From Nitrospinota bacterium (lineage in GTDB: Bacteria; Nitrospinota; Nitrospinia; Nitrospinales; VA-1): a DNA stretch of 39,058 nucleotides. The translations under genes and the position numbers were made by a program. The notes under the pieces were generated by a model that worked only from the letters and a program-made list of their open reading frames with translations, was not told the origin of the DNA and did no database searches. The stretch lies in assembly GCA_013349585.1 (NCBI GenBank), contig DUZG01000012.1, positions 1-39,058 on the forward strand. Direction: 5' to 3'. The number at the start of each line of letters is the position of its first letter. Within the stretch, counting starts at the first letter, position 1. Below are positions 19,891 to 35,387 of the stretch, one piece after another.

Positions 19891-19971
19891 TTAATCTAAC
19901 CCGCTTTAAATTTACTCAGAACCATTTCCCGTTTAAAATAGTGTTAATTACGGTACTTTTAGGAGAGCAAA

Positions 19972-20301
19972 ATGAAATTAACTGTGACAGGGATAAAAAT
20001 TGAGATCACCGATGGTATTCGCAATCACCTGAACGATAAAATGAATAAAACAATTGCTGATCTGGGAGAGGCAGCAGATGTTCACGTAGCACTATCGGTG
20101 GAGAAGCATCGTCATTTCGCAGAAATCACTGTTAAGACCGAGGGTTTTACCCTTCATAGTGAGGAGGAAACCGAGGATCTCTATACTTCCATGGATAAAA
20201 CTTTAGAGAAAATGGAAAAGCAAATTAGAAAGCATAAGGAAAAAGCAAAAGCCCTGCGAAAAAAGCAAGGGTCTCAATCTAAAAATCAAAACCAGGATTA
20301 A
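19972..20301 (+). CDS. hpf: Ribosome hibernation promoting factor (short form)
   Basis: The 109-residue protein binds the 30S decoding region during stationary phase and helps form 100S dimers. It has the S30AE fold, with KLTVTGIKIEITDGIRNHLN at the start, HVALSVEKHRHFAEITVKTE in the middle and EEETEDLYTSMDKTLEKMEK forming the second helix. A lysine-rich tail follows. Only the short form is present, since the C-terminal dimerisation domain of long HPF is absent. A strong AGGAGAG site lies before the ATG. The 81-base gap after rpoN contains AT-rich sequence that may hold a separate promoter. Confidence 0.94.
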   Translation: MKLTVTGIKIEITDGIRNHLNDKMNKTIADLGEAADVHVALSVEKHRHFAEITVKTEGFTLHSEEETEDLYTSMDKTLEKMEKQIRKHKEKAKALRKKQGSQSKNQNQD

Positions 20302-20318
20302 TCCGCAGAAAATAAAAT

Positions 20319-20783
20319 ATGAAAATTGATGAAATACTGAAAAAAGAATCTGTAATCGCAGATTTAGTCGGGAAAAATAAATTAGAAGTCATTCAAGAAA
20401 TGACCTCGTGCCTGAAACAGAACAATATAATAAAAAGTGACCAGGTTCTACTTGCAACTCTTATGGAACGCGAAAAGCTAGGTAGTACTGGCATCGGAGA
20501 AAATGTTGCGATCCCTCATGGAAAATCGGATGAATTAACACAAATCATCACCGTTTTTGCAAGATCCTTAGAGGGTGTCGAGTTTGAATCATTGGATCAA
20601 AAGCCTGTCCATTTCGTTTGCATGGTCATTGCCCCCGCCCATTCGACAGGTCAGCACCTTAAAGTACTTGCAAGAATTTCACGACTCTTCAAAAACCAGG
20701 TATTGCGCGAGGGAATTCTCAAGGCTGAGGACTCCAATGCTATCTATTCCATCCTTTTGGAAGAAGACTCCAAATTTATATGA
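20319..20783 (+). CDS. ptsN: Nitrogen-type PTS enzyme IIA
   Basis: A 154-residue EIIA-Ntr protein. GSTGIGENVAIPHGKSDEL carries the phosphorylated histidine, His67. HFVCMVIAPAHSTGQHLKVL is the second conserved block. It is the regulatory end of the PTS-Ntr phosphorelay and commonly controls potassium, nitrogen or carbon functions by protein contact rather than by transporting sugar. It lies 17 bases after hpf and 10 bases before ptsI. The HPr (NPr) partner that should pass phosphate between ptsI and ptsN is not encoded here. Confidence 0.95.
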   Translation: MKIDEILKKESVIADLVGKNKLEVIQEMTSCLKQNNIIKSDQVLLATLMEREKLGSTGIGENVAIPHGKSDELTQIITVFARSLEGVEFESLDQKPVHFVCMVIAPAHSTGQHLKVLARISRLFKNQVLREGILKAEDSNAIYSILLEEDSKFI

Positions 20784-20793
20784 CGACAATCAT

Positions 20794-22563
20794 ATGAAAG
20801 GCATCGCTGTATCCAAAGGGGTAGCCATAGGGAAAGCATATATGTTGGACCGTTCGAAATTCTGCATCATCAAGCAGACCCTTGAAGAACATGAAGTAGA
20901 GAAAGAAATCGAACGTTTTCGCGATGCCATAGAAAAAACAAAATTGCAAATGTCGGATATCAAAAAACGAGCAGAAAAAATCGCCGACAAATACGCCGTT
21001 ATTCTTGACACCTATACCCTCCTCCTGGATGATGATATTCTGGTTAATGAAACCATTGAGAATATCAGGACCTATCACACCAATGCCGAGTGGACCTTAA
21101 ATCAAACTCTGCAAAACTTCCTCAACCTTTTTGACAATATCAATGATGATTACTTAAAAGGGAAAAAGGATGACCTTGATCTGCTCGTCCATGCAATACT
21201 CCGTAATCTAATCGGTCACTCGCAAGAAACGCTATCTGATATCCAGGAACCTGTGATCATCGTTACGCATTCATTAAGCCCTTCCGATACCCTGAGTATG
21301 CCGAGAAATTTTATAAAGGGGTTAGCCACGGAAACAGGCGGAAAAACCTCCCATGTTGGCATATTTGCCGCAGCATTAGGAATTCCTGCAGTCACAGGCA
21401 TAAAAGACCTAACCTCACAAATCAACTCCGGCGATAACATTGTGGTCGATGGAATTGACGGCGAGGTAATCGCTCATCCCAACGATGAAAAAACCGAATA
21501 TTATTTAAAGAAACAAGAGAATTATCGTAGGTATGAAGAACGACTACTGGTTAATATCCATCAAAGCGCAGAAACTTTGGATGGACAGCATATCCACCTT
21601 TTAGCAAATATTGAATCCAGTCAGGAAGTCAAAATTTTACGCAATTTTGGTTCTGAGGGAGTCGGGCTTTATCGAACCGAGTTTCTTTACATGTCCGCAA
21701 GTAATCTTCCAGGCGAAAAAGAATTGTACGAAAATTTCAAAGCGGTTGCCCAGGAAATGGACGACAACCCCGTTGTCATTCGGACTCTGGATATTGGCAT
21801 GGACAAACAGCTTGCTGGTATCCAGACAAATGATGAAGATAACCCTGCATTGGGATTAAGAGGTATTCGGTTATCTCTGGCGAAACCAGAATTATTTTCA
21901 AGTCAGCTAAAAGGCATCTTGAGAGCAAGTTTTTATGGGAACGTGAAAATTCTTTATCCGATGGTATCTTCAGTGACAGAAATAATTCAAGCGAACAAAT
22001 TATTACAAGAAGCAAAATCAATTTTAAAAGAAGATCAAATTCCATTCGATGACGATATAGAAATCGGTGCCATGATTGAGACACCCGCCGCCGCCCTATG
22101 CATCGATCACATCCTCGAGCATGTAGACTTCGTCAGTATAGGAACTAACGATCTCGTCCAATATACCCTGGCCGTAGACCGGGTTAACGAAAATGTAGCC
22201 CATCTATATCAGCCATTTCACCCTTCGGTAATAAGATCCTTAAAACAAATTTTTGTCGCAGCAAACAAAGCAGGGAAAAAGGTTTCAATATGTGGCGAGT
22301 TGGGTGGAGACCCTATGGCAACCATGCTTTTACTTGGATTAGGCAAACTGGCAGACCTCAGCATGGAACCGCATTCAATCCCTAAAGTTAAAAAAATCAT
22401 TCGCCTGATTCGTCTTGATGAGGCTCGCCAAATGGCCGATCATGTGTTAAGTTTACAGACTGTAGAAGAAATATCTCGTTTCATTGCCAAGGAAATGCGA
22501 ACTCGATTTCCAGATGACTTTGACCGGGATTTAAGCTTTCAGGAAAAAATAAAACCTGCCTGA
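20794..22563 (+). CDS. ptsI: PTS enzyme I (PEP-protein phosphotransferase)
   Basis: The protein takes phosphate from PEP and gives it to HPr. I set the start at ATG 20794 (589 aa), since MKGIAVSKGVAIGKAYML is the family N-terminus. A longer open frame from 20575 lies inside ptsN and is not natural. The phosphohistidine is His187 in TETGGKTSHVGIFAAALGIP. Further blocks are EGVGLYRTEFLYMS, GMDKQLAG, IGAMIETPAAALC, VSIGTNDLVQYTLAVDRVN and the catalytic-cysteine block ICGELGGDPMATMLLLGLG. No N-terminal GAF domain of PtsP type is present, so this is the plain EI length. An HPr gene is absent between ptsN and ptsI. Confidence 0.95.
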   Translation: MKGIAVSKGVAIGKAYMLDRSKFCIIKQTLEEHEVEKEIERFRDAIEKTKLQMSDIKKRAEKIADKYAVILDTYTLLLDDDILVNETIENIRTYHTNAEWTLNQTLQNFLNLFDNINDDYLKGKKDDLDLLVHAILRNLIGHSQETLSDIQEPVIIVTHSLSPSDTLSMPRNFIKGLATETGGKTSHVGIFAAALGIPAVTGIKDLTSQINSGDNIVVDGIDGEVIAHPNDEKTEYYLKKQENYRRYEERLLVNIHQSAETLDGQHIHLLANIESSQEVKILRNFGSEGVGLYRTEFLYMSASNLPGEKELYENFKAVAQEMDDNPVVIRTLDIGMDKQLAGIQTNDEDNPALGLRGIRLSLAKPELFSSQLKGILRASFYGNVKILYPMVSSVTEIIQANKLLQEAKSILKEDQIPFDDDIEIGAMIETPAAALCIDHILEHVDFVSIGTNDLVQYTLAVDRVNENVAHLYQPFHPSVIRSLKQIFVAANKAGKKVSICGELGGDPMATMLLLGLGKLADLSMEPHSIPKVKKIIRLIRLDEARQMADHVLSLQTVEEISRFIAKEMRTRFPDDFDRDLSFQEKIKPA

Positions 22564-22634
22564 TTAAATTCCCCAAAAATCCTAGACATTTAATCTGATT
22601 TAATTATAAAAATATTAAAAGAAGGAATATTTGT

Positions 22635-23795
22635 ATGAACCCTGAAAATTTTTTATTTACCTCTGAATCTGTTTCTGAAGGCCACCCTGATAAAATGGCG
22701 GATCAGATCTCAGATTCTATTCTTGATGCTATTTTAGCTCAGGATGCCACTGCACGCGTAGCTTGCGAAACCATGATAACGACGGGGTTTGTTATCATCG
22801 CCGGAGAAATTTCTACAGATTGTTATGTAGAAATGCCAAAGATTATTCGTAATACAATAAAAAATATTGGCTACACCCAGTCCGATATGGGATTCGATTA
22901 CGAAACATGTGGCATCCAGGTAGCACTCGATGAGCAATCCAAAGACATTGCCCGTGGAGTCAATAACGATAAGCATGAGCAAGGCGCAGGCGATCAGGGA
23001 ATGATGTTCGGCTATGCGAGTAATGAAACTCCTGAGCTTATGCCAATGCCCGTAATGTACGCCCATAAATTGGTAAAAAAACTTGCCGATGTAAGAAAAA
23101 AAGGCACCCTTCCCTACCTTCGTCCTGATAGCAAATCTCAAGTGTCAGTTAGGTACGAAAATAATAAACCTGTGTGTGTTGAAACGGTTGTTATTTCTAC
23201 CCAGCATGACCCCAGTGTCACTACAAAGCAAATCAAAACCGATGTCACTGAAATGGTCATCAACAAAATCATCCCGAAAAAATTACAACATAAAAAGATG
23301 AAGATCCATGTCAACCCCACAGGCCGCTTTGTTGTTGGTGGACCTCATGGAGACTGCGGATTGACTGGAAGAAAAATTATTGTAGATACCTATGGCGGGT
23401 TTTCACGGCATGGAGGGGGAGCATTCTCAGGAAAAGACCCTTCCAAGGTAGACCGGTCTGCAGCCTATATGGCTCGCTACATTGCAAAAAATCTGGTGGC
23501 CGCTAATGTAGCTGGACGTTGTGAAGTCCAACTCGCCTATGCGATTGGTGTTGCCGATCCGGTTTCTGTATGCATCGAAACCTTTGGCACTAATAATGTT
23601 GACCCAGGAATCCTGGAAAACCTGGTGCGCTCGCATTTCAACCTCAAGCCTGCGGGCATAGTAAAAACCCTAGATCTGCTCAAACCCCGTTACCTGCCTA
23701 CGGCAGCTTACGGACATTTTGGCAGGAAGGAAGCATCGTTCACTTGGGAAAATACAGACAAAGCCAAGGCGATTAAAAAAGATGCAGGGCTTTAA
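22635..23795 (+). CDS. metK: S-adenosylmethionine synthetase
   Basis: The 386-residue cytosolic enzyme makes SAM from methionine and ATP. It opens with [20 protein letters not shown], where His17 is the catalytic histidine. The methionine and phosphate motifs [12 protein letters not shown] (117-128) and [19 protein letters not shown] are exact, and [19 protein letters not shown] is conserved. Normal length (about 385-400). A GAAGGAA site precedes the ATG. The 71-base upstream gap is AT-rich and shows no SAM riboswitch. A GC-rich hairpin follows at 23826. Confidence 0.97.
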
Positions 23796-23825
23796 ACAGG
23801 AACTACGGAGGGGATAGAAGTTATA

Positions 23826-23855
23826 CTTCGGCGTTGCCTTCAGGCGGCGCCGAAG
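23826..23855. terminator. GC-rich hairpin between metK and the CheY remnant
   Basis: CTTCGGCG (23826-23833) pairs with CGCCGAAG (23848-23855), continued by TTGCC with GGCGG through wobble pairs around a TTCA loop. It lies 31 bases after metK and overlaps the last codons of the minus-strand CheY-like remnant. No T run follows on either strand, so it may be a weak terminator or an mRNA stabilising stem. Confidence 0.45.
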
Positions 23856-24221
23856 ACGACCTCTTTAATTTTGTTTCCTAAAGATTCGGGCTTAACCGAC
23901 TTTACAATATATTCTTTGATACCTGCTGCAACGGCTTCAACAACTTTTCCCCGTTTTTTTTCAGCAGTTATCAACAGAAAAAGGATATCCCTGAGCTTGC
24001 GATACTTAGTTAGCTCTTTAAACAAATCAAGACCGTCCATGTTTGGCATATGCCAGTCCGATATGATGAGTCAAAAGATTTCCGTTTCAGTTCTTCAAGT
24101 GCAGCTCGTCCATCTTCCGCTAGAGCCAAATTAAAATATCCCAACTTTTCAGGGTTCTGCGAAGAAATAATCGGGTCGTAAAGAGATCTTCAACGATCAA
24201 AATGTTGATATCAAAATTCAT
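23840..24221 (-). pseudogene. CheY-like response regulator, two frameshifts
   Basis: ATG 24221 begins MNFDINILIVEDLFTTRLFL, a receiver-domain first strand with the acidic pair ED. Near 24145 the frame shifts and continues as LGYFNLALAEDGRAALEELK. Near 24072 it shifts again to LIISDWHMPNMDGLDLFKEL, where the aspartate of SDWHMPNMDG is the usual phosphorylation site. The last frame holds LLITAEKKRG and ends with the conserved lysine region EYIVKSVKPESLGNKI and a TGA at 23840. Read together these make one intact-length receiver of about 125 residues. A single 69-residue open fragment (23840-24049) remains. Such single-domain regulators act in chemotaxis or phosphorelays. Here it cannot be made whole. 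Confidence 0.82.
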
Positions 24222-24391
24222 AAAATATTTATTATTGGATATACATTTATACCTAGCGTCCTACCACAAACCTCTTTTTTAACAAACACATTAAATATCA
24301 AGGACTTTCAATCACTCATACTTCCTTTTCCACAACACTCCAATGCATGAAATCCACAAAAATCGATAAAAATAGTAGCATCTGGGTTCTA

Positions 24392-25162
24392 TTAACCTGA
24401 CACCACTACTTTATGTCCACACATTAAATAGGCTCCACTCGCATAAATCGTCTCTGAATGTCCAATTTCAAAACCCGCACATCGCAACTCTTCGGTTAAT
24501 TCCTCGCGCGTATACGCCATCGATTGCCCCGATTGCAGCTGTTTATGGATGAAACTCAATCCCAGACCTTTTGTAAATGGATAAAAAAGCATTCGCTTTA
24601 TCGCTGTCTGTAAAAGTCCCCTTCTTGCTCGAAGTAATTCGCAGCTTTCTTCTATAATTTTACCTGCGTCATAGCTTTTAGAAGGACAACATACGATCAA
24701 TAGGCCGCCGGATTTTAAAACGCGATACATATTTTTTAAAGCCTGTTGCCGTTTGTCATTTTCGCGAATTGTATAAATAGAAAAATGCGCAGCTACAACA
24801 TCCAGCGAATTTTCCTTAAAAACTAGAGCTGTAGTAATATCACTTTGGACACAAACAACCCTATTATCGGAGATACTTAAATCTCGTGCCCGCATTCGTG
24901 CCTGGCTAAGCCCGGCAGACAATAGGTCAGATCCGTAATATACCGCTCCTTGCTTAACTGCATTTTCCAAAAAAAACAATAGCAGTCCCGTGCCGCACCC
25001 TGCATCCCAGATTTTCTGCCCCGGATTATCCGGTAATAACGCTACGACCTTGCGCATAGATTCCAGATAGGACTCCGGTGTCAAACGGTCATATAAACGA
25101 GATTTAAAACCCGTCCGCCAATAATATTTTTCGTACCAACTTGAAAAAAAATTATATTGCAT
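24392..25162 (-). CDS. Class I SAM-dependent methyltransferase
   Basis: A 256-residue soluble protein. The SAM-binding motif I is IWDAGCGTGLLLFF (51-64). The acidic loop YGSDLLSAGLSQAR, motif II/III VCVQSDITTALVFKENSLDV and VLKSGGLLIVCCPSKS complete a Rossmann methyltransferase core. The C-terminal part (RMLFYPFTKGLGLSFIHKQL) is hydrophobic and could sit against membrane or lipid. The pattern is close to methyltransferases of small molecules or quinone/lipid head groups, but the substrate cannot be read from sequence. The gene is alone on the minus strand, between the CheY remnant (170 AT-rich bases, nothing seen) and the divergent gene at 25237. Confidence 0.85.
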   Translation of the reverse strand: MQYNFFSSWYEKYYWRTGFKSRLYDRLTPESYLESMRKVVALLPDNPGQKIWDAGCGTGLLLFFLENAVKQGAVYYGSDLLSAGLSQARMRARDLSISDNRVVCVQSDITTALVFKENSLDVVAAHFSIYTIRENDKRQQALKNMYRVLKSGGLLIVCCPSKSYDAGKIIEESCELLRARRGLLQTAIKRMLFYPFTKGLGLSFIHKQLQSGQSMAYTREELTEELRCAGFEIGHSETIYASGAYLMCGHKVVVSG

Positions 25163-25236
25163 AAGAATGTTCTATCGTTTGCCCATAAACATGAATATAA
25201 TTGCCTACATATTTAGCAAAACGTAGGAGTTCTTTT

Positions 25237-25674
25237 ATGGCAAAAAAACCGTTTATCAACAAACATGGATTCGTAGAGTACCCTTTTCTCCACGATACTC
25301 GAAAACAAAAAAACTGGTGGTTCTACAACCTTATGGAGGACCATTTGAAGAGGCGGGCTCGACAGTATGCTGGTCCAAATTATACCCGGGAAGACTGTGA
25401 AGAAGATTTCAAAAAAATTCTCGCCTCAACGAATTTGAAGTTTTATGTGTTGCTCCCCTCAGGTATGGGGATGGAGTTCAAGTTGATCGGAAAATACCAG
25501 ACACCCGAGCTCATTGAAATTGAAGATCCAGTTCCTTACATCACCGAAAAATATGGTGGCGGGAAATTCAAGGTGAATATCTATCACGAGGGCACTTTCT
25601 GTGGAACAGAAAACTTCAAGGCCCACGGCGACCCAAAATGGGTAGAAATTGATGACGAGACCCCTACAGCTTGA
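25237..25674 (+). CDS. Conserved-looking hypothetical protein (145 aa)
   Basis: Start ATG 25237 is chosen because AGGAG (25225-25229) stands at ideal distance. A TTG 36 bases upstream would bury that site. The protein is aromatic and charged (MAKKPFINKHGFVEYPFLHD, KNWWFYNLMEDHLKRRARQY), with FYVLLPSGMGMEFKLIGKYQ and a C-terminal KVNIYHEGTFCGTENFKAHG. There are two cysteines and no signal peptide or membrane span. I do not recognise a family. Its neighbours are a divergent methyltransferase and a convergent Rieske gene. The strong ribosome binding site suggests good expression. Confidence 0.75.
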   Translation: MAKKPFINKHGFVEYPFLHDTRKQKNWWFYNLMEDHLKRRARQYAGPNYTREDCEEDFKKILASTNLKFYVLLPSGMGMEFKLIGKYQTPELIEIEDPVPYITEKYGGGKFKVNIYHEGTFCGTENFKAHGDPKWVEIDDETPTA

Positions 25675-25731
25675 GCAAGTGCTCTTATGCTTTTTCTCTG
25701 GGCAGGCAAAAATACTTATCCGAACAGAAAA

Positions 25732-26148
25732 TCAATCCAGTTCTTCATCCGGATTACGGGGTTTTTGGATGGTGGGGATACTGAACTTTAAACTAGATGG
25801 CAGATTGGATGCCTTTTTGCCGTAGGCAATATTTCCTTCCTCGGCTTCTAATCCAATATAGATATTTTCGTTTTTGGTTTTCACAGGATAGGTTGGAATA
25901 AACAGTTCCGGGTTCTGCATATTCGCACCATCAGTCAATCTAAACCGCCACTCGTGATTTGGGCAAATCACAATGCCCTCTTCTATTCTTCCTTCTCCTA
26001 ATGGAGAACCTCTGTGTGGACAGGTGTTGGTAATCGCATAATATTTCCCTTTATAATTAAACAGGGCAATTTGTTTATCTCCCGCCGCAATAATTGCAGA
26101 CTTGCCAATGGGCAGTTCTTCTTCCTTCATTACTTTTACGAATTTCAT
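25732..26148 (-). CDS. Rieske [2Fe-2S] ferredoxin-like protein
   Basis: A 138-residue soluble protein. Cys43-x-His45 in NTCPHRGSPL and Cys62-x2-His65 in VICPNHEWRF are the full Rieske ligand set, with the typical GEGRIEEG between them. No transmembrane helix is present, so this is the soluble NirD/dioxygenase-ferredoxin type and not a bc1 subunit. A C-terminal extension of about 40 residues after YIGLEAEEGN is proline/lysine-rich and not part of the core domain. It follows the radical SAM gene by 35 bases and probably shares its transcript. It could supply electrons to that enzyme or to a partner oxygenase, but this is inference. Confidence 0.9.
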   Translation of the reverse strand: MKFVKVMKEEELPIGKSAIIAAGDKQIALFNYKGKYYAITNTCPHRGSPLGEGRIEEGIVICPNHEWRFRLTDGANMQNPELFIPTYPVKTKNENIYIGLEAEEGNIAYGKKASNLPSSLKFSIPTIQKPRNPDEELD

Positions 26149-26183
26149 AATTTTCCAGGGATTAAATCTGTTTGCCTATAGGC

Positions 26184-27959
26184 TCATGCCAGCGCACCTA
26201 ATCGTTCAGGCAGGGAATGTTTCTGGTGATGGGATAGGTATAGCAATCCATCGGACAAGGAATAGTTGTGCGGAAAGGTCATAACCTCGCGGCCTAATTT
26301 TTCTATCAATTGTTGGTAGAGTACATTCGCTTCGTCCGAAGACATTCCTATAGTTGTTTCATAAGTGTAGCCCAAACTCAAGTCGTGTTCCGGAGGCGTA
26401 TAAAGTTTCGTGATGCCCCACTCTGCCGGATTCTTCTCTATTGGCGCTCCGCGCTCCAAGTCAAACTGTGACAGGATGGCTGAGAAGCCGGGGGAGTCGA
26501 GTAGCCTTTGGTTATTGAGCACAAAGTTGATTGAGTCCATCACCTCGGGTTCGGTCTCGGTTGGGAAGCCACATATTAAGTAAAAGTGCATAGCGATTCC
26601 CAACTTCATGCACGCCTCGGAGGTTTCATCTACCCAACTCAGCTCCACACCTTTTTTCATGGAATCAAGAACACGCTGATTGTAAGACTCCAGCCCGAAA
26701 ATCAGTTTTCTACAACCCGATTTATAAAGTAATTCAATGCGATCGTCCTTCAACAGGCTCTTTTCAAACTTAAGTTCCCCTGTCCATTGGACATCGACTT
26801 TTTGCTCGATTATTTTCGCGGCAAAGGTTCTCAAAAAATTTATAGGCAATGCTTCATCGGTGAAAAAGAAATGATCGCAATTGTATTTTTCCTTAAGAAC
26901 TTTAAAATCGTTAACCACATTTTCAGCGTAGCGCACATGGAAATTCATATGGTCAAAGGGAATGGAACAAAATGCACACTTTTCCCAATAACAACCTCGA
27001 GATCCCATAATGGGTAATACAAGGGTCGGGGAAAGGTAGAGATCTAAAGGTAATCCGTCAAAGTCAGGAGTCGGTAGCGCATTGAGCTCTTCCTTGGCAA
27101 AGGGACGATTCACCTTGACCACGCCATCTTGTCGATAAATCAGGTTAGGAACTTTGCTCAAGTCACCATCGCCCCTCAAGTGTTCTACCAGCTTGAGCAA
27201 TGGGGTTTCCCCTTCATGCACAATGAAGCTATCTACAAAGTCGAATAATTTAGACGCATCTTTCTCCAAACGATCAACCAGCTTGGTGAAAACGCTTCCG
27301 CCGATAGTGATATGGATTTCAGGCCGATTCTTCTTAACCAGATAGGCCAGTGTGAGCCCTGAAATAATTTGCTCCACCGATGTGATGGAAATGCCGAGTA
27401 TGTCGATGTCTTCTTTCAAAATTCCATCGAGATACCATTTTTCGTAAAGGTCGTAAAAAAAGTTTTCTTCCGGATGATCGAAGGAATCGATAACTTCTTT
27501 CGAAGAGTAAGGGGAAAACCGCATCTGGCTACCAATGACTGTCAATTGTGACGGATAATAGGGTGCAAGGATGTTGTCGAGCCACACATCCATTATTTTC
27601 AGGTTTTCCATATACTGATCTATTTCATAAAACTCCGGACTGCGTTGCGAATCTACAGCGGCATCGATCTGATCCTTCAATGCCATTACGATTTCTTCTG
27701 CTTCCCGCAATTTGGCGAATTTTTCCGATTCCACTTGCGTAAGGCTGGGACGCGAACTCAGCTCGTTCAACTCACGGATGATTCTTTCATAAAGTGGCTT
27801 GGTCTTTTCCCAGGTACAAAGGTCGTTGAGCAACTCAATCGCCAAGTCTCTTTGCACTACGTCGTGCACTCCATTTTGGTTCAAGAACGCTTTCAAGCTC
27901 GGCAAACTTAGATAAGGCTGCGAGGGATGCCAAGATGTCGGGAAAACTAAATAGATCAT
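26184..27959 (-). CDS. B12-binding-type radical SAM protein
   Basis: A 591-residue protein. The N-terminal part (LVFPTSWHPSQPYLSLPSLK, LGISITSVEQIISGLTLAYL, ITIGGSVFTKLVDRL) has the layout of a cobalamin-binding Rossmann domain, though no DxHxxG motif is evident. The radical SAM core follows, with SRGCYWEKCAFCSIP giving Cys323, Cys328 and Cys331. The first spacing is four residues, not the usual three. FFFTDEALPINFLR, KLIFGLESYNQRVLDSMKKG and FYLICGFPTETEPEVMDSIN match the HemN/MiaB-like barrel. The product and substrate are unknown. Candidates are methylation or C-C chemistry on a small molecule or peptide. It sits between a cupin gene (12 bases upstream) and a Rieske gene. Confidence 0.87.
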   Translation of the reverse strand: MIYLVFPTSWHPSQPYLSLPSLKAFLNQNGVHDVVQRDLAIELLNDLCTWEKTKPLYERIIRELNELSSRPSLTQVESEKFAKLREAEEIVMALKDQIDAAVDSQRSPEFYEIDQYMENLKIMDVWLDNILAPYYPSQLTVIGSQMRFSPYSSKEVIDSFDHPEENFFYDLYEKWYLDGILKEDIDILGISITSVEQIISGLTLAYLVKKNRPEIHITIGGSVFTKLVDRLEKDASKLFDFVDSFIVHEGETPLLKLVEHLRGDGDLSKVPNLIYRQDGVVKVNRPFAKEELNALPTPDFDGLPLDLYLSPTLVLPIMGSRGCYWEKCAFCSIPFDHMNFHVRYAENVVNDFKVLKEKYNCDHFFFTDEALPINFLRTFAAKIIEQKVDVQWTGELKFEKSLLKDDRIELLYKSGCRKLIFGLESYNQRVLDSMKKGVELSWVDETSEACMKLGIAMHFYLICGFPTETEPEVMDSINFVLNNQRLLDSPGFSAILSQFDLERGAPIEKNPAEWGITKLYTPPEHDLSLGYTYETTIGMSSDEANVLYQQLIEKLGREVMTFPHNYSLSDGLLYLSHHQKHSLPERLGALA

Positions 27960-27971
27960 AGGATTATTTTT

Positions 27972-28298
27972 TTAGTGCGGCTTGGGTGCCATGAAAACCA
28001 GTATCACCAGTTTGCCGTCTGAATCATTAATAACTCCATGATCCTCACCGGAGGGAGCCATGGTAATGTCGTTTTCTGAGAGTTCTTTTTCTTCAGAACC
28101 AACAGTTATTTTTCCTTTGCCTTGCAGAATAAAATAAACCTTGTCCGACCCTTCATGGGAATGGACTTTTTGAAACTGCCCAGGTTCAAGGCAGTATATA
28201 TCACAAAAGAAATTATCAGTGTCGAACAGACTTATTTTTTTCATTTTTTCTGGACTAAATTCTAGGGACTCCAGAACATTCACTACTTTCATTTTCAT
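27972..28298 (-). CDS. Small cupin-domain protein
   Basis: A 108-residue single-domain cupin. Motif 1 is recognisable in the segment QKVHSHEGSDKVYFILQGKG with the metal-binding histidines and glutamate-like spacing, and motif 2 lies in APSGEDHGVINDS. No signal peptide is present. Cupins of this size bind metals, sugars or aromatic compounds or act as isomerases, and the ligand is not known here. It precedes the radical SAM gene by 12 bases and so probably leads a cupin-radical SAM-Rieske transcript. It shows no damage. Confidence 0.85.
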   Translation of the reverse strand: MKMKVVNVLESLEFSPEKMKKISLFDTDNFFCDIYCLEPGQFQKVHSHEGSDKVYFILQGKGKITVGSEEKELSENDITMAPSGEDHGVINDSDGKLVILVFMAPKPH

Positions 28299-28491
28299 AC
28301 CACCCGATTTGGTTGAATAAATTTTTAATGCCAGTGTATTTTTCTACGAATTCTAGTCTACCAAAATGCCTTTGGGTTTTTACCTAAAAACAAAAAAATT
28401 CCTAATATTCATATATTTACAGATACTAACATAGGAAAACAACTGAAGCCAAAGAAAATAGATTCCCACAGCTCTCTGGCAGGCAATTTTA

Positions 28492-28520
28492 TTGACATCC
28501 CCCTTCTAATCAACTAATTT
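28492..28520 (+). promoter_or_regulatory. Possible tRNA-Pro promoter
   Basis: TTGACA (28492-28497) is a perfect -35 hexamer and TAATTT follows after 17 bases, giving a leader of about 65 bases before the tRNA. The -10 box is poor. The remainder of the gap 28299-28491 between the cupin gene and this site is AT-rich and holds nothing I recognise. Confidence 0.4.
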
Positions 28521-28591
28521 GGAACTCATCTGGTGATGCTTTTTGATAGCAAGCGGTGCACCTCACAACACACTCCAAAATCATTATAATT

Positions 28592-28668
28592 CGGGATGTA
28601 GCGCAGTCTGGTAGCGTACTCGGCTGGGGGTCGAGTGGTCGGAGGTTCGAATCCTCTCATCCCGACCA
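28592..28668 (+). tRNA. tRNA-Pro (anticodon GGG)
   Basis: The acceptor stem CGGGATG pairs with CATCCCG, the D stem GCGC and loop carry AGTCTGGTAG, the anticodon stem is CTCGG/TCGAG around CTGGGGG (anticodon GGG), and the T arm is GGAGG-TTCGAAT-CCTCT. Discriminator A and an encoded CCA end the gene at 28668. The D-loop T-G-G and T-loop TTCGA are canonical. It reads CCC and CCT codons. It is a single gene with its own terminator. Confidence 0.95.
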
Positions 28669-28679
28669 TATAGGAAGAT

Positions 28680-28716
28680 AAAGGGTTAACCCGAAACGGT
28701 TAGCCCTTTAGTTTTT
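28680..28716 (+). terminator. Intrinsic terminator of tRNA-Pro
   Basis: AAAGGGTTAACC (28680-28691) pairs with GGTTAGCCCTTT (28698-28709) with one mismatch around a six-base loop, followed by AGTTTTT. It begins eleven bases after the CCA end. Confidence 0.8.
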
Positions 28717-28765
28717 ACTGGGGTTATTTTTCAGGATTCAAACAGACAATCGATGGCCAACAAAT

Positions 28766-29571
28766 TCAGAGATTTGCTTGATCTATAAAATTTCCCAACT
28801 CTTCTTGAGATAGTCCCGCCTTTTTTATGAAATCTTCGCTGGAAGTATCTTTATATAGAGTAGGTATTGGGTGAGAGATTTCATTCTCGTTCGCCAGTTT
28901 ATTTGCAGCGCTAAGAATTTCCGCGAGCGATATGTTCTTACCGTCATCGATGCAGTCTTTATGGTGACTTGTTATCCCCCCCCTATTACGAGAGGTGGCA
29001 TCACCCACCATTTTTTTAAAAACATAGCTCCTAATTCTTGATGGTCTATTCCATAAATTGCCAGCTCGAGGGACTCTAAAGACTGATCTGAATTGTCTAT
29101 ATCTTTTGTATGTAGAAAATCATAATAATTCTCTGGAATTAAATAATCAAAAACCAAAATTCCGACATCATGCATCAGTCCAGATAGAAAACTGGCCTCT
29201 ATCGAATCTTCATCTTCAAGCAGTTCGTTAGCAAGTAATCGCGTTAGATAACTCACCGCCAATGAATGTTTCCAAAATTAAGTTTGGTCAAAGGATTTGT
29301 TTTCTTTAAAAGCTTTAGGCACTTCCACACAGTAACAAATATCGAGCACCATCTTTATCCCCAATCTTACGGTTACCTCTTCAACATTCTCAACCTTTTC
29401 AAGTCCTCCGCTAAATAACAGTATTAGACAGAGTGACAAGTTTCCCAGTAAGCACCATACCTGATTTAATTAATCGACAAATATCATCAACATTAAAATC
29501 AAGGTCATTTTTTAGTTTTTACAACTCTAATAGAATTTTGGCAAAGGCAGAAGGTCACCCTTCTGTTGCAT
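28766..29571 (-). pseudogene. HDOD-domain protein, heavily decayed
   Basis: Read across frames, the minus strand spells one HDOD domain. From an ATG at 29571 the codons MQQKGDLLPLPK shift near 29535 to ILLEL, stop (TAA 29519-29521), then KLKNDLDFNVDDICRLIKSG and MVLTGKLVTLSNT. A second shift near 29425 leads to LLFSGGLEKVENVEEV, then VRLGIKMVLDICYCVEVPKA. TAA 29278-29280 precedes FWKHSLAVSYLTRLLANELL, GLMHDVGILVFDYL and GIDHQELGAMFLKKW. A run of eight G at about 28976-28983 causes a third shift into ITSHHKD, which then reads to TGA 28766. HDOD proteins regulate signalling and motility, often next to two-component genes. No product could be made from this locus. Confidence 0.85.
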
Positions 29572-29961
29572 GGAGTCTAAAAATTTTTCTCACATAGAAT
29601 AAATCTTTATTATTTTTTTACAGTAAGATTCCATGTTATTTTATATTATAAACAAAGTCAATCAGGGTAAAAATTAGTATGTGAGAAATTGCTAGCTTGA
29701 AATTGGTTTTAAAGATCACTTTCAACAAACCAAAACCAAATAAAATGAAAGAATTACACAACTTAAACTACAAACTAAAATAATTTAGAGGTTTAACTCA
29801 AATCATTTATTGAGGTACTATAATAAACAAGAATATTTTGATGCAAAGGAATACCTCCCCCCCCCACAAAGCGACTTGGTTCAAAAATTTTGAATATTAC
29901 TAACTGAGTAGATTACTTAGACAACCTAAGGTAAAAACCCTACCTTTTAAAGGAGCAACTC
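29572..29961. other. AT-rich non-coding stretch
   Basis: About 390 bases between the HDOD remnant and the TPR gene contain no credible ORF. A run of nine C lies around 29857-29865 in otherwise AT-rich DNA, and a likely ribosome binding site (AAAGGAG) marks its right end. It may carry the upstream promoter of the TPR gene and decayed 5' sequence of the HDOD gene. I see nothing else in it. Confidence 0.5.
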
Positions 29962-30339
29962 ATGAAAAAACTATATTTTGTTTTAGCTTTATTTTTTATA
30001 GCGTCTTTATCCACGACGGCATTAGCGGCAGACCCCGCCCTGAAATTCCAAATGAAGGAAGGTTCTAATGCAGACGCTCACAAACATAATGAAGAAGGCA
30101 TTTCTCATTACAATCAAGGACACTTTGATGTGGCGTTGAAACATTTTCAAATGGCTTCAAAAATTGACCCTAGTGTAGGAGAAGCGCACTACAATGAAGC
30201 ACTATCCTTAGATGCGCTTGATCGGCATGGAGAAGCTACTAACCATTTTTATGCTGCTCGGAAACACGCAAATGGAAACGCAGCTATTCTTAAATCGGGA
30301 ATTTTAAACGCTCACGCGCCGATGAGAGAAGGCTCTTAA
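29962..30339 (+). CDS. Secreted TPR protein (125 aa)
   Basis: A 125-residue protein with a clear signal peptide (MKKLYFVLALFFIASLSTTA, cleavage about residue 22 after ALA), so probably periplasmic. After it come tetratricopeptide-like helices: HNEEGISHYNQGHFDVALKH and DPSVGEAHYNEALSLDALDR are consecutive TPR units, followed by a third partial helix pair (HYFAARKHAN-like). TPR proteins mediate protein contacts, and the partner is unknown. It has an excellent AAAGGAG site and is followed by a strong terminator, so it appears to be an expressed single-gene unit. It stands between the HDOD remnant and the small ORF at 30425. Confidence 0.85.
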   Translation: MKKLYFVLALFFIASLSTTALAADPALKFQMKEGSNADAHKHNEEGISHYNQGHFDVALKHFQMASKIDPSVGEAHYNEALSLDALDRHGEATNHFYAARKHANGNAAILKSGILNAHAPMREGS

Positions 30340-30365
30340 ATTTTCCGTCTATAAGATAAAACCAG

Positions 30366-30405
30366 AAAAACCCGGATCACCTTTTATGACGATCCGGGTT
30401 TTTTA
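30366..30405 (+). terminator. Terminator after the TPR gene
   Basis: CCCGGATC (30371-30378) pairs with GATCCGGG (30391-30398), extended by an A run on the left and T6 on the right. The A run also gives a T run for minus-strand transcription, so the element can serve the opposing small ORF. Confidence 0.85.
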
Positions 30406-30424
30406 TTTCTAGTTTCAGAAATAA

Positions 30425-30565
30425 CTAATAGTATCCCTTATTCTCCTCAACTCCCATAGTCTGCAACTTCTCTTTGCTCAAACCTTTGGAACTTGAGTTA
30501 TAACCAGTGCTCGAAAAAAATCTGGATGAATTTCTGATGGTCTGAATTTCAAGCTTTATTTTCAA
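30425..30565 (-). CDS. Possible small ORF (46 aa)
   Basis: A TTG at 30565 with AAGG about ten bases upstream opens 46 codons ending TAG at 30425. The peptide is serine-rich and ends GLSKEKLQTMGVEENKGYY, a natural-looking C-terminus. The open frame extends further upstream to near 30604 before a stop. The ORF faces the bidirectional terminator at 30366. No family recognised. It could also be the 3' remnant of a decayed gene. Confidence 0.28.
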   Translation of the reverse strand: MKIKLEIQTIRNSSRFFSSTGYNSSSKGLSKEKLQTMGVEENKGYY

Positions 30566-30675
30566 TAAGGGCCTTCTTCCCTCCCCTTCCAAAATCAAGC
30601 CCGTTCAGAATACGACTTTTCTATCGCTTTGTGTTATTATAATAATTATTGCACTGAACCTTCCGGTCCTGATAT

Positions 30676-31203
30676 ATGAAAAACTGGTTTATGCTTGCTT
30701 TGGTTGGCCTTGATCAACCTAGTATTGTCGCAAAATTAAGCGCAGGGCTTTGTAAAAGCGGCTGCAATCTAGGTGATTCGACCATGGGTCGCTTGGGAAA
30801 CTACTTCACTATTATGTTAATGGTCGAATACGGGGGTAATAAAAATTCCCTCGAAAACATTATCACTTCCGTTTGTGACCCTCTAAATCTTGATTCGCAT
30901 CTTGTCCAGATTAAGGATGGCAGTGCTCAGCACTTTGAGCCCGATGTCCGAATCAGTCTATTTACTGAAGATCGTAAGGGTGTTGTAGAAGATGTTACGG
31001 TATCTCTTGCTGATGCGGGGTTGAATATTCTGCAACTGGAATCCAATCTTGGTGAAGACAGTGAAGCCGAGACGACCTACTACATTCATTTGGAAGGAAC
31101 ACTATCAGAGGGAGGGTTGCCTCCAATTTATCAGGTTCTGGAAAAACTCGAACAAAAAGGGATAAAATCCCACCTCATTCCGGTTACCGCGCAAGTTTCC
31201 TAA
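30676..31203 (+). CDS. GcvR-like double ACT-domain protein
   Basis: The 175-residue protein consists of two ACT domains with no other domain. The first (about 3-78) begins FMLALVGLDQPSIVAKLSAG and the second (about 90-170) reads VRISLFTEDRKGVVEDVTVS and LADAGLNILQLESNLGEDSE. This layout and the opening 'GLDQPSIVAKLS' match the GcvR group, in which GcvR antagonises the glycine cleavage activator GcvA by binding glycine. Many bacteria have such proteins without GcvA, and no gcv gene is near here. The function as a repressor is therefore only inferred. It is convergent with fliG across a weak AT-rich hairpin. Confidence 0.8.
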   Translation: MKNWFMLALVGLDQPSIVAKLSAGLCKSGCNLGDSTMGRLGNYFTIMLMVEYGGNKNSLENIITSVCDPLNLDSHLVQIKDGSAQHFEPDVRISLFTEDRKGVVEDVTVSLADAGLNILQLESNLGEDSEAETTYYIHLEGTLSEGGLPPIYQVLEKLEQKGIKSHLIPVTAQVS

Positions 31204-31211
31204 AGCATTCC

Positions 31212-31238
31212 GAATAATATTTCTAACAAGTATTATTC
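31212..31238. terminator. Weak convergent hairpin between gcvR-like gene and fliG
   Basis: GAATAATA (31212-31219) pairs with TATTATTC (31231-31238), lengthened by three inner pairs including one G-T. It is AT-rich and would serve both converging genes. Stability is low. Confidence 0.35.
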
Positions 31239-32276
31239 TTAAACCATTTCTTCTCCGCTACCGCCTATCATTATCTTACCTTCTTCTTCCATTTTCTTAC
31301 AAACTGCAATGATTTTCTGCTGACTTTGTTCGACATCAGTTATCTTTGTCGGGCCTAGAGATTCTAGATCATCGCTGAGCATCTGCCCAGCACGTTCAGA
31401 CATATTGTTAAACAACTTTTCTTTTAGTTCATCGCTAGCAGTTTTCAGCGCAATTAAAAGATCTTCTTGATTAATTTCCTTCATGACCAACTGAATTCCG
31501 GTATCATCAATTTTGAGAATATCTTCAAAAGTAAACCGCAGATTGCGGATCTCGTCTGCTAATTCCTGGTCCACCTCATCCATGGAAGTAAGAATACTTG
31601 TTTCAGTCGCACGATCCAGTTTACCCATTACAGCCGCAGCAATTGCAATGCCCCCCAGTTTATTACCAGAAACAGCACCTGAAGTTCTAAACTCAGCCTG
31701 CAGAGCTTCATCAAGGTCACGTATAACCGAAGGAGCCACCCTTTCAAGAGTCGCGAGCCTCTGAATAACCTCCATGCGCTTATCTTCCGGTAGTTCTCGA
31801 ATAGTCAAACTCGCCACAGGAGGTTCAAGGTGTGCCAGAATAATTGCAGCTGTTTGTGGGTGCTCGTTTTTAACAAAGGAAGCAATAATTTTAGGATCTA
31901 ACATACGAACGGTTTCCAGTCCACCGCCCAATTCTTCTCCGGGAGTTGTAATATTGTTTAAAATATCGACCGCTTTAGCTGGATCCATCGCTTGCATCAA
32001 TGCAGTCTTGAGAAATTCCACGCCACCCACACCCAATCCACCAGCACCTGACGCTACCAAGTCATAAAATTCCTTGCTTACCATCTCCATCACACTCGAA
32101 TCCACGTTACCAAGGGCAGCCATATAATTTCCTACACTCTGGATTTCACGCTCATCCATTTTGGATAAAACCAATGCCGCATTTTCTTCACCCAGAGTCA
32201 TCAATAGGATTGCTGCTTTTTCGGGTCCTGTATATATTCTTTCAGCCGTCTTTAAATTTTTATCAGTATCCGCCAT
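31239..32276 (-). CDS. fliG: Flagellar motor switch protein FliG
   Basis: The 345-residue protein forms part of the rotor and contacts the stator. The N-terminal domain (GPEKAAILLMTLGEENAALV) binds FliF. The middle domain carries the EHPQ motif (138-141, FVKNEHPQTAAIILAHL). The C-terminal domain LRFTFEDILKIDDTGIQLVM holds the charged helix that meets MotA. Length and order match full FliG. No other flagellar gene lies in the window, since its neighbours are tig and a GcvR-like gene. FliG usually sits with fliF, so either a dispersed flagellar set or a relic is possible. The frame is intact. Confidence 0.95.
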   Translation of the reverse strand: MADTDKNLKTAERIYTGPEKAAILLMTLGEENAALVLSKMDEREIQSVGNYMAALGNVDSSVMEMVSKEFYDLVASGAGGLGVGGVEFLKTALMQAMDPAKAVDILNNITTPGEELGGGLETVRMLDPKIIASFVKNEHPQTAAIILAHLEPPVASLTIRELPEDKRMEVIQRLATLERVAPSVIRDLDEALQAEFRTSGAVSGNKLGGIAIAAAVMGKLDRATETSILTSMDEVDQELADEIRNLRFTFEDILKIDDTGIQLVMKEINQEDLLIALKTASDELKEKLFNNMSERAGQMLSDDLESLGPTKITDVEQSQQKIIAVCKKMEEEGKIMIGGSGEEMV

Positions 32277-32309
32277 TGAATTCTTACCCGTTTCCGTGGA
32301 TTATTATTA

Positions 32310-32339
32310 CAATATGACTCTCGCCCTTCCGAGTGTCAA
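32310..32339 (-). promoter_or_regulatory. fliG promoter with palindromic spacer
   Basis: On the minus strand TTGACA (32334-32339) is followed 18 bases later by ATATTG (32310-32315). The spacer and part of the -35 box form an imperfect palindrome, GACTCTCG (32316-32323) and CGAGTGTC (32330-32337), with one mismatch. An operator placed over a promoter spacer would block RNA polymerase directly. Confidence 0.4.
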
Positions 32340-32727
32340 TATCAAACCGGGACCGCGCTCATCCTGAAGAAACTCTAAAAACCATTAAATAAAACAATTC
32401 ATATAGCTTTCCGCGCTCTTACGAATAGTACAATTGCAGATAAATGTGGGCCTTGAACTTTTTATCGTCCATTTGTCTTGAAAATTAAGTCTATAAGCTT
32501 AAAAACTGCAGATTTCTTTATGAATATTATTTCTGCTGCTGCAATGGCCCTTTATAGCCTCCTACAATAATATCTGTAATGAGAATAACCCGGTCATAAA
32601 TTTTTAGTTTTCTTAAAGAGGTGGGTTATAGGTGATACTGGAACGACAATTAGAAATCGCTCTTCAAAAGCCTGGCAGGAAAAGCGCTTTACTGGATAGT
32701 GGGGAAATACAACCGATCTATTGCGAT
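32340..32727. other. Intergenic region between fliG and tig
   Basis: About 390 bases. Plus-strand 32632-32832 and short minus-strand runs are open but without domain, good start or neighbours that support them. A minus-strand phrase YDRVILITDIIVGGYKG (about 32540-32600) could be the remnant of a decayed gene. Otherwise nothing recognisable. Confidence 0.4.
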
Positions 32728-34080
32728 TTACTCTTTTACAGGCTCATCCTTATAAAATTCAAATTCACAACTGGAAAAAATAAAGTTCATTGTCTTTTGA
32801 CCCAACAACTTGGTTGTCGTCTGACTCAATGATTCCGGATTCGACATAAGGCGCTTCTGAACATCTTCAACTTTTTGTTTTGTTTGCTGCGCCAACAATT
32901 CATACTCACCTTCCATATCTTGTTGCGTGATGTGAATATTCTCTGCCTGGGCAATCGACTCAAGTGCCATATACCCCTTGGTATTGAAAATTGCCTTCTC
33001 CCGCCATTCTTTCTGCGCTTTTTCTGGTTCGAACCCAGAATCCTCAATCTTCATACCCGACTGCGCAATCTGAAATTTCATTCCCTCGATCATGAATTTC
33101 AGTTCTCGCTCTATAATGGATTCTGGAGGCATGGTATCAGCCTGTTTAACCAACATATTAAAAATATCTTCTTTAATTTTCAGTTCTTCTTTCTGGTCTT
33201 TATGACTTTGAAGATCCACCTTGATAGCACGCTTAAGTTCATCGACTGTTTCAAATCCCTCCCGGCTGGCGATTTCATCTGATAATTCCGGTAAGGTCAG
33301 TTGTTTAATTTCTTTGATATTTATCTTAAACGTTGCCCGATCATCTTCTTGTCCTTCTTCAGCACCAGGTACCGGGAAACTAATGCGCTGAACCTTTTGA
33401 TTCCAATTGGGAGGAAGAATAACCTTGATCTCAAATTCTCCACCTGCCTTATGGCCTATAAGTTGATTTTCAAAACCATCCAGCATCTTCTTTTCACCGA
33501 TTCTAAGCTCAAAGTCTTCAGCCTTTTCATTTTCCATCGGCTGGCCATCAACAAAGCCTTGAAAATCCATCTTCACAATATCCCACAGAGCCACAACATG
33601 GTCGGCAGCCATAACATCGAGAGAACCGTGACGAGCCAGAACTTTCTCCTGAGTTTCTTCCATGTCTTTATCTGTAATTACTGCTTCTTTTTTCTTAAAC
33701 TTAAGCCCTTTATAATTTTTGATTTTGATATCCGGTTTGATATCGAGGACCACCGAAAACTTTAAAGGTTCATCCTTTTTAATGTTCTGCAATCCCGCAT
33801 GGTCGATCTCAGGTTGCCCTGTTGGACGCAGACCAGATTTATTCAATGCTTCTTCGTAATACTCCTGCATCAACTCCTGAAACATATCTCCAAATGACTG
33901 CATGGGAACCTGTTTTTCAAGAACTTTTTGCGGAATTTTTCCCGGTCGAAATCCAGGCATCTTCATTTCCCGATTCAGTTGTTTATAAGCCGCATTGATT
34001 CGTTTCGACACTACCTCTTCGGGAATAGTGATAGTCAATTTTCGCTTCAGTTCTTCTAACTCTTCAACATCGTATTCCAT
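32728..34080 (-). CDS. tig: Trigger factor
   Basis: The 450-residue ribosome-bound chaperone. The N-terminal ribosome-docking loop GFRPGKIP (43-50) is intact. The central FKBP-type prolyl isomerase domain spans about 150-250 (VKMDFQGFVDGQPMENEKAE, MLDGFENQLIGHKAGGEFEI). The C-terminal helical chaperone arms follow. It binds near the tunnel exit (L23) and holds nascent chains. ATG 34080 begins directly with the family N-terminus. It follows ispG by 23 bases. The clpP and clpX genes that often follow tig are not present, and fliG lies beyond a 451-base gap instead. Confidence 0.95.
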   Translation of the reverse strand: MEYDVEELEELKRKLTITIPEEVVSKRINAAYKQLNREMKMPGFRPGKIPQKVLEKQVPMQSFGDMFQELMQEYYEEALNKSGLRPTGQPEIDHAGLQNIKKDEPLKFSVVLDIKPDIKIKNYKGLKFKKKEAVITDKDMEETQEKVLARHGSLDVMAADHVVALWDIVKMDFQGFVDGQPMENEKAEDFELRIGEKKMLDGFENQLIGHKAGGEFEIKVILPPNWNQKVQRISFPVPGAEEGQEDDRATFKINIKEIKQLTLPELSDEIASREGFETVDELKRAIKVDLQSHKDQKEELKIKEDIFNMLVKQADTMPPESIIERELKFMIEGMKFQIAQSGMKIEDSGFEPEKAQKEWREKAIFNTKGYMALESIAQAENIHITQQDMEGEYELLAQQTKQKVEDVQKRLMSNPESLSQTTTKLLGQKTMNFIFSSCEFEFYKDEPVKE

Positions 34081-34103
34081 CGTTCCGCCTTTAAAAATTT
34101 TTT

Positions 34104-35252
34104 TTATTTAGGTTCAAGCTCGCCAAATTTCTCAAGAATCATTTGATCGACTTCTTTTTTTAATTGCTGCAAAATATCTTCATAGGAAAAGGAGCCTAGA
34201 GTTTCAGTCCCCTTTTTCAAATTCACATGCGTTGGGCCACACCACATTCCTAAATCAGCATCATCCGTTTCACCTGGCCCATTTACTCTGCAACCCATTA
34301 CAGCAATGGTCAGCTTATATTTTTCCGCATACTCTGTCATCTTGCGAACATCCTGAGCCAGGTCGACAAATTTATCGTTCTCGACTCGGGAACAGCTGGG
34401 GCAAGCTATGATATTTAATCCCTCCAAAAAATTTTCTGGCACTGAACGAAACCGACCTTCAGCAATATCCGTAAGAATCTCCCGGCCCACATCAATTTCC
34501 TGACCTTTATCATCATTCGGCAACGTCAATGAAACGCGGATAGTATCGCCAATTCCAGCTGAGATCAATTGTTCAAATGCAATGCGAGTTTTGATAATAC
34601 CCTCAGGAGGAAGCCCTGCCTCGGTAACGCCTAAATGCAAAGGCACGTCTGGCCTTTCCGCAGCAAACCTGCGGTTGGCATCGATCACTTTTGTAGAATC
34701 AGAGTCCTTGAGCGACACACAATAGTTCTCGAACTTCATTTCATCAAGCATTTCACAATGATCCACTGCACAACGCACCATGGATTCGGTGGAGTCGTCT
34801 TTATATCTTTCTTTGTAATCCGGGTCAACGGAACCGCAGTTAACTCCGATTCGAATAGCGCAATCGTTTTTTCTTGCCGCCTCAACGATGAATTCGACTT
34901 TTTCGCGAATAGACTTATCTTTTTCCAAATGAAAAAGGTGACCGGGGTTATAACGAATCTTATCTACCCAAGGAGCAACGATGGGAGCCAGCTTATAGTT
35001 CTCCTGCAAATCTACAGACCAAGTACTGTCAGGAAATTTTTTCCGCAACTCTTTCAGTGCTTCCACATCTTTTTCGCTGTCCACCGCAATTCGGATGACA
35101 TCGGCATTGGCTTTTTCCAGCACTTCTATCTGTCTGGCAGTTGCGGTCAAATCTTGAGTTTGCGTCGCTGCCATACTTTGAACGGCAATGGGAGAATCTC
35201 CACCAATCACCAATTTTCCAATACGAATCTTTCGTGTCTTTCTTGGCTGCAT
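34104..35252 (-). CDS. ispG: 4-hydroxy-3-methylbut-2-enyl diphosphate synthase
   Basis: The 382-residue iron-sulfur enzyme makes HMBPP in the non-mevalonate isoprenoid route. The TIM barrel half opens with [20 protein letters not shown]. The [4Fe-4S] ligands are in IIACPSCSR (Cys284, Cys287) and [10 protein letters not shown] (Cys321), with Glu328 as the fourth ligand position. NPGHL and GVNCGSVDP are further family blocks. It is of typical bacterial single-barrel length. The start is three bases after a 43-codon ORF, and tig follows by 23 bases, giving an operon of pflX-like, small ORF, ispG, tig. Confidence 0.95.
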
Positions 35253-35255
35253 TAT

Positions 35256-35387
35256 TTAGTGTTCCTGTTTCGGATAGTTATCTGGAAGGGAACCTTCCTC
35301 TGTCAGGCGAGCCTGAACAAAATGAACATCAAGATTAACAAATAAGAGATGCCATAACAAGACAGAGAGCGCCCTATTCTCAGACAT
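35256..35387 (-). CDS. Small coupled ORF (43 aa) before ispG
   Basis: ATG 35387 overlaps the PflX-like stop (ATGTCTGA), and its TAA at 35256 lies three bases from the ispG start. The peptide begins MSENRALSVLLWHLLFVNLD, which could make one short membrane-embedded helix, and ends charged (RLTEEGSLPDNYPKQEH). Position between two coupled genes supports translation, at least as a coupling ORF. The family is not recognised. The purines just before its stop (CAGGA) also serve as the ispG ribosome binding site. Confidence 0.42.
   Translation of the reverse strand: MSENRALSVLLWHLLFVNLDVHFVQARLTEEGSLPDNYPKQEH

Follow-up and report, generated by a model that had tools for sequence, protein, structure and literature searches.

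Three minus-strand genes that lie close together in a stretch of 39,058 nucleotides of Nitrospinota DNA (contig DUZG01000012.1; the whole stretch is called the window below) raise the question of whether a cupin, a radical SAM protein with a cobalamin-like N-terminus and a Rieske protein act in one common pathway. An earlier note on this DNA had proposed as much, namely a three-gene module for the modification of a small molecule or a peptide. The three open reading frames (ORFs) stand where that note had placed them (Table 1), with 12 bases between the cupin and radical SAM genes and 35 bases between the radical SAM and Rieske genes, and its domain calls, including the CX4CX2C motif of the radical SAM protein and the tail of the Rieske protein, agree with Pfam, the structure model and the alignments. 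Each of the three genes is kept across an order, and therefore none of them is a chance ORF. The window derives from a Nitrospinaceae MAG, which is incomplete, and the related loci stem from Nitrospina, Nitrospinaceae or Nitrospinota MAGs, a few of which are filed under Nitrospirae. The genomes compared are mostly draft MAGs, and the counts given below vary with the thresholds chosen; phyla other than Nitrospinota were sampled via fetched loci only.

Table 1. Features of the cupin-radical SAM locus and its surroundings, in window coordinates.
Feature	Position	Strand	Remarks
Rieske gene	25732-26148	minus	138 aa ORF
Radical SAM gene	26184-27959	minus	591 aa ORF
Cupin gene	27972-28298	minus	108 aa ORF; first gene of the conserved pair
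Conserved upstream element AATTAGTTGATTAGAAGGGGGATGTCAATAAAAT	28486..28519	minus	34 bp; overlaps a weak sigma-70-like match
tRNA-Pro(GGG)	28592..28668	plus	divergent upstream neighbour, marks the conserved locus
6.58-kb block (radical SAM, cupin, tRNA-Pro, HDOD, TPR, ACT, fliG)	26149..32728		between tig stop and Rieske start
tig (trigger factor)	32728..34080	minus	normally followed by the Rieske gene
ispG (gcpE)	34104..35252	minus	upstream of tig; named by sequence reading

The cupin-radical SAM half of the proposed module stood up when the neighbourhood was compared between genomes. A radical SAM orthologue is present in 55 of 77 Nitrospinota genomes, and 51 of these 55 have a cupin gene immediately before it on the same strand, at gaps of 12-206 nt; the longer gaps in some genomes would leave room for separate promoters of the two genes. 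Among the exceptions, two (G054, G064) have contig ends that cut near the radical SAM gene, a third (G046) has an HsdR-like sequence (read by eye) upstream of it, on a contig that may be chimeric, and the fourth (G041), which belongs to another order, carries a radical SAM gene of 47% identity and no cupin match. The pair is single-copy and strongly conserved. In the radical SAM tree, the orthologues branch in line with the groups of species and stand separate from four groups of paralogues that these genomes also encode, and the pair is most likely a vertically inherited unit throughout the order of Nitrospina-like bacteria. Among the fetched loci, neither the further radical SAM paralogues nor the relatives from outside Nitrospinota have a cupin match beside them, and the searchable literature returned no report on a cupin together with a cobalamin-dependent radical SAM enzyme, nor on Nitrospina together with a cupin and a radical SAM protein. 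Two side observations concern the wider radical SAM family: several paralogue groups of B12 radical SAM proteins with CX4CX2C (L128, L129, L130, L132, L136, L144), some of them in tandem pairs, are without a curated family, and a contig filed as Geopsychrobacter (L054, 3230-3685) holds an 89% identical piece of the radical SAM protein, which is probably a binning error.

Upstream of the cupin gene, a divergent tRNA-Pro gene is present not only in the window but also in 15 of 16 other loci tested; it is a marker of the locus and lies outside the pathway. The upstream element AATTAGTTGATTAGAAGGGGGATGTCAATAAAAT was matched in 9 of 21 genomes, once in each, and eight of these nine matches sit at the cupin locus, while the reversed control pattern gave no matches. 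Judged by its sequence, the element is a probable promoter or regulatory region of the cupin operon; a role as a regulon signal was ruled out by the single site per genome. An Rfam search for a leader RNA found the tRNA alone. The HDOD-domain gene of the window (28763-29595, minus strand) shows a frameshift near 28980 when compared with the intact 287-aa copy in G006 (L022, 4352-5215); this may reflect a pseudogene or a fault in the assembly.

The Rieske half of the module did not stand. The Rieske protein, a soluble ferredoxin (PF00355, 8.7e-19 in Pfam), has the ligands CPH...CPNH and a C-terminal tail, PTIQKPxNxDE, that is nearly invariant across the order, throughout which an orthologue with the same tail is found. 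However, its gene adjoins the radical SAM gene in only 4 of the 51 genomes that have both (G000, G003, G005 and G006, all of the window's genus), and in the other 47 the two genes lie apart, an outcome that the earlier note had named as refuting its module. Its usual neighbour is tig, directly downstream of which it lies in 39 of the 52 genomes having both; tig is in turn downstream of ispG, giving an ispG-tig-Rieske string in which Rieske comes last. By gene order, the Rieske gene belongs with tig and ispG, outside the cupin-radical SAM unit, and as a pathway member it was ruled out by synteny. The string might tie the Rieske ferredoxin to the iron-sulfur enzyme IspG, and the tail is a possible docking motif. 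The Rieske protein also scores 78.1 against TIGR02378 (NirD, the small subunit of nitrite reductase), just over the cut-off of 74.65, a score that is not to be read as nitrite reductase; the gene does not lie beside nirB, and in contrast to NirD the protein has the extra conserved C-terminal tail. NirB over cut-off was found in only 3 of 26 genomes searched, each time with its own separate Rieske gene adjoining, and not in the window's own genome, an incomplete MAG.

The history of this adjacency can be read from a congener, G007, in which 12 bp separate tig from Rieske and the cupin-radical SAM pair is on another contig. Window positions 19092-26148 and 32729-35288 align to positions 14001-6924 and 6910-4347 of the G007 contig (L114), whereas the 6580 window bases that separate the stop codon of tig from the start of Rieske have no counterpart there; the block is bounded at its two breakpoints by this stop codon and by the ATG of the Rieske gene. 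In G002, tig is likewise followed by this block, there with two extra genes, and the contig ends within the radical SAM gene. Other genera carry the block at a different place, often with a convergent transporter operon after it that looks ZnuABC-like from its sequence. The most economical history is that the block was inserted between tig and Rieske in some members of the genus to which the window belongs, with insertion preferred to loss in G007 because of parsimony, and it is this placement of the block that brought the Rieske gene to within 35 bases of the radical SAM gene. The pairing of Rieske and radical SAM proteins that had been called unexpected is then a recent chromosomal neighbourhood, and what had been proposed as a three-gene pathway is a conserved, uncharacterised two-gene unit.

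For the radical SAM protein of this unit, Pfam reports a Radical_SAM match (PF04055, 1.1e-12) and a sub-threshold B12-binding match (21.3 bits against a cut-off of 32.1), and none of the curated family cut-offs of NCBIfam is reached. The structure model (mean pLDDT 90.3) has five B12 Rossmann strands (residues 2-6, 34-38, 187-191, 216-220 and 244-246), a helical insert (residues 39-181) that splits this Rossmann domain, a β-hairpin (273-283) after strand 5 and, beyond the hairpin, a radical SAM barrel and a C-terminal helical region. A five-strand Rossmann B12 domain followed by a β-hairpin is described for class-1 cobalamin-dependent enzymes (PMC13331322). The best solved fold matches of the model are TokK, OxsB, MgmA and TsrM, with Foldseek E values of 2.5e-15 to 1.8e-12 and TMq of 0.44-0.55 against OxsB, TokK and TsrM, and a profile search with the protein retrieves OxsB at 2.6e-15. 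As modelled, the protein is a class-1 cobalamin-dependent enzyme with putative cobalamin binding, sharing with OxsB, TokK and TsrM the N-terminal Rossmann B12 domain, the hairpin after strand 5, the barrel and the C-terminal helical region. It differs from them in that identity in structural alignments is just 12-16%, in its helical insert of ~140 residues between B12 strands 2 and 3, and in the residue under the cobalt, which is Asn186 in OxsB, Arg69 in TsrM and Trp76 in TokK (PMC13331322) and is replaced here by Thr193, a residue that aligns with OxsB Asn186 and is invariant among the orthologues. The cluster motif, RGCYWEKCAFC, places the CX4CX2C cysteines at positions 323, 328 and 331, all three invariant in 35 aligned relatives. 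This spacing is not special, because OxsB carries it as well (RGCDYSRCTFC), and it has also been reported for GenD1 (PMC4340712).

The cupin is a single domain of the Cupin_2 family (PF07883, 7.1e-16, 58.1 bits against a cut-off of 27.2 in Pfam), in which H46, H48 and H87 are invariant, as are two cysteines, C32 and C36, and in which invariant D52/K53 takes the usual position of the metal-ligand Glu. By sequence and by fold, the nearest solved structure is 1v70 (TTHA0104; E 5.3e-29, TM about 0.87), which resembles it in the single domain, in H-x-H with a later His and in D-K at the Glu position, at 44% identity in the structural alignment. The cupin is without the usual Glu ligand, and catalysis is therefore uncertain. 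Its very small size, the D52/K53 replacement and the invariant C32 and C36 would suit a ligand-binding sensor or stabiliser that controls or protects the radical SAM enzyme rather than an enzyme in its own right, but the three His ligands are kept and the closest relative, 1v70, has the same D-K motif, and we consider such a role possible but unlikely. Far less probable still is that all three genes serve one pathway, in which the Rieske ferredoxin would act as electron donor for either the radical SAM enzyme or a cupin oxygenase and the linkage would have tightened within the genus. The common strand and the 35-nt gap, which has no terminator-like site on the minus strand, are in line with this view, and so is the retention of the Rieske gene in the same order, given that unlinked genes can cooperate; the adjacency is however confined to four genomes, tig is the usual neighbour, and the adjacency itself stems from a block whose two ends coincide exactly with the stop codon of tig and the start codon of the Rieske gene.

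Two further alternatives concern the substrate. In one, the radical SAM enzyme would C-methylate a ribosomal peptide that the cupin then tailors, as in the peptide-modification pathway that the earlier note had envisaged. The best curated NCBIfam match of the protein is indeed TIGR03975, a family of RiPP maturation radical SAM C-methyltransferases that it resembles in overall layout, but it scores 147 bits against a cut-off of 281.85, whereas a genuine member of the family from the window's own genome, the positive control, scores 584.6 bits and has CX7CX2C in place of CX4CX2C. This RiPP enzyme is encoded elsewhere in that genome (L131, 3787-5619; G000:C4). No conserved short ORF that could encode a precursor peptide was found in the 1.5 kb before the pair or in the 1 kb after it, where the sole order-wide short-ORF signal is the tRNA-Pro gene and other frames are common only to close relatives; a precursor encoded at a distance is still conceivable. 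Moreover, the radical SAM tree follows the species, and species-like trees are not typical of RiPP clusters. A RiPP maturase is thus an improbable reading. The other alternative is phosphonate tailoring by a PhpK-like P- or C-methyltransferase and a cupin, analogous to the phosphinothricin or fosfomycin pathways, where B12 radical SAM enzymes and cupins are paired as Fom3/HppE and PhpK/PhpD. The PhpK P-methyltransferase family (TIGR04479) is the second-best curated match, with 117.4 bits across the B12 and radical SAM parts, and PEP mutase is over its curated cut-off in 32 of 41 relatives. However, the score is far under the PhpK cut-off of 600, and three genomes (G021, 97% complete; G016, 91%; G020, 96%) keep the pair without a PEP mutase over cut-off. 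PEP mutase is common, yet not tied to the pair, and its locus is unlinked; the phosphonate link was rejected, and we give this alternative little credence. As an observation apart, the open frames that encode PEP mutase (G000:C19:5053-5913 and relatives) are about 575-690 aa long and hint at a fused domain; members of the order may also produce phosphonates.

We consider it likely, with good though not full confidence, that the locus holds a vertically inherited two-gene unit of a cupin and a cobalamin-dependent radical SAM enzyme, and that the Rieske gene lies outside this unit and became adjacent through the inserted block. The pair is most likely a two-enzyme tailoring unit with a B12-dependent enzyme of the radical methyltransferase type. 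Judging from its predicted fold and cofactor motifs, the radical SAM enzyme would bind cobalamin base-off, without a His ligand, generate a 5'-deoxyadenosyl radical from SAM with its 4Fe-4S cluster, and methylate an unactivated carbon, or perform a related cobalamin-radical reaction. The substrate would be a small molecule or a lipid, which the cupin might then bind, isomerise or oxidise. The Rieske gene of the window may now be transcribed via read-through. A tentative proposal, which we hold with low confidence, is that the pair makes a modified lipid, cofactor or metabolite not described before, which nearly all Nitrospina-like bacteria and no others would have.

The comparison illustrates that a recent chromosomal insertion can mimic a biosynthetic module if one genome is read alone. 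The Nitrospina-like group includes major marine nitrite oxidisers, and the cupin-radical SAM pair is strongly conserved in this group, yet fits no curated enzyme family. If it is true that the pair makes an order-restricted product, marine nitrite oxidisers could be traced by it as a biomarker.
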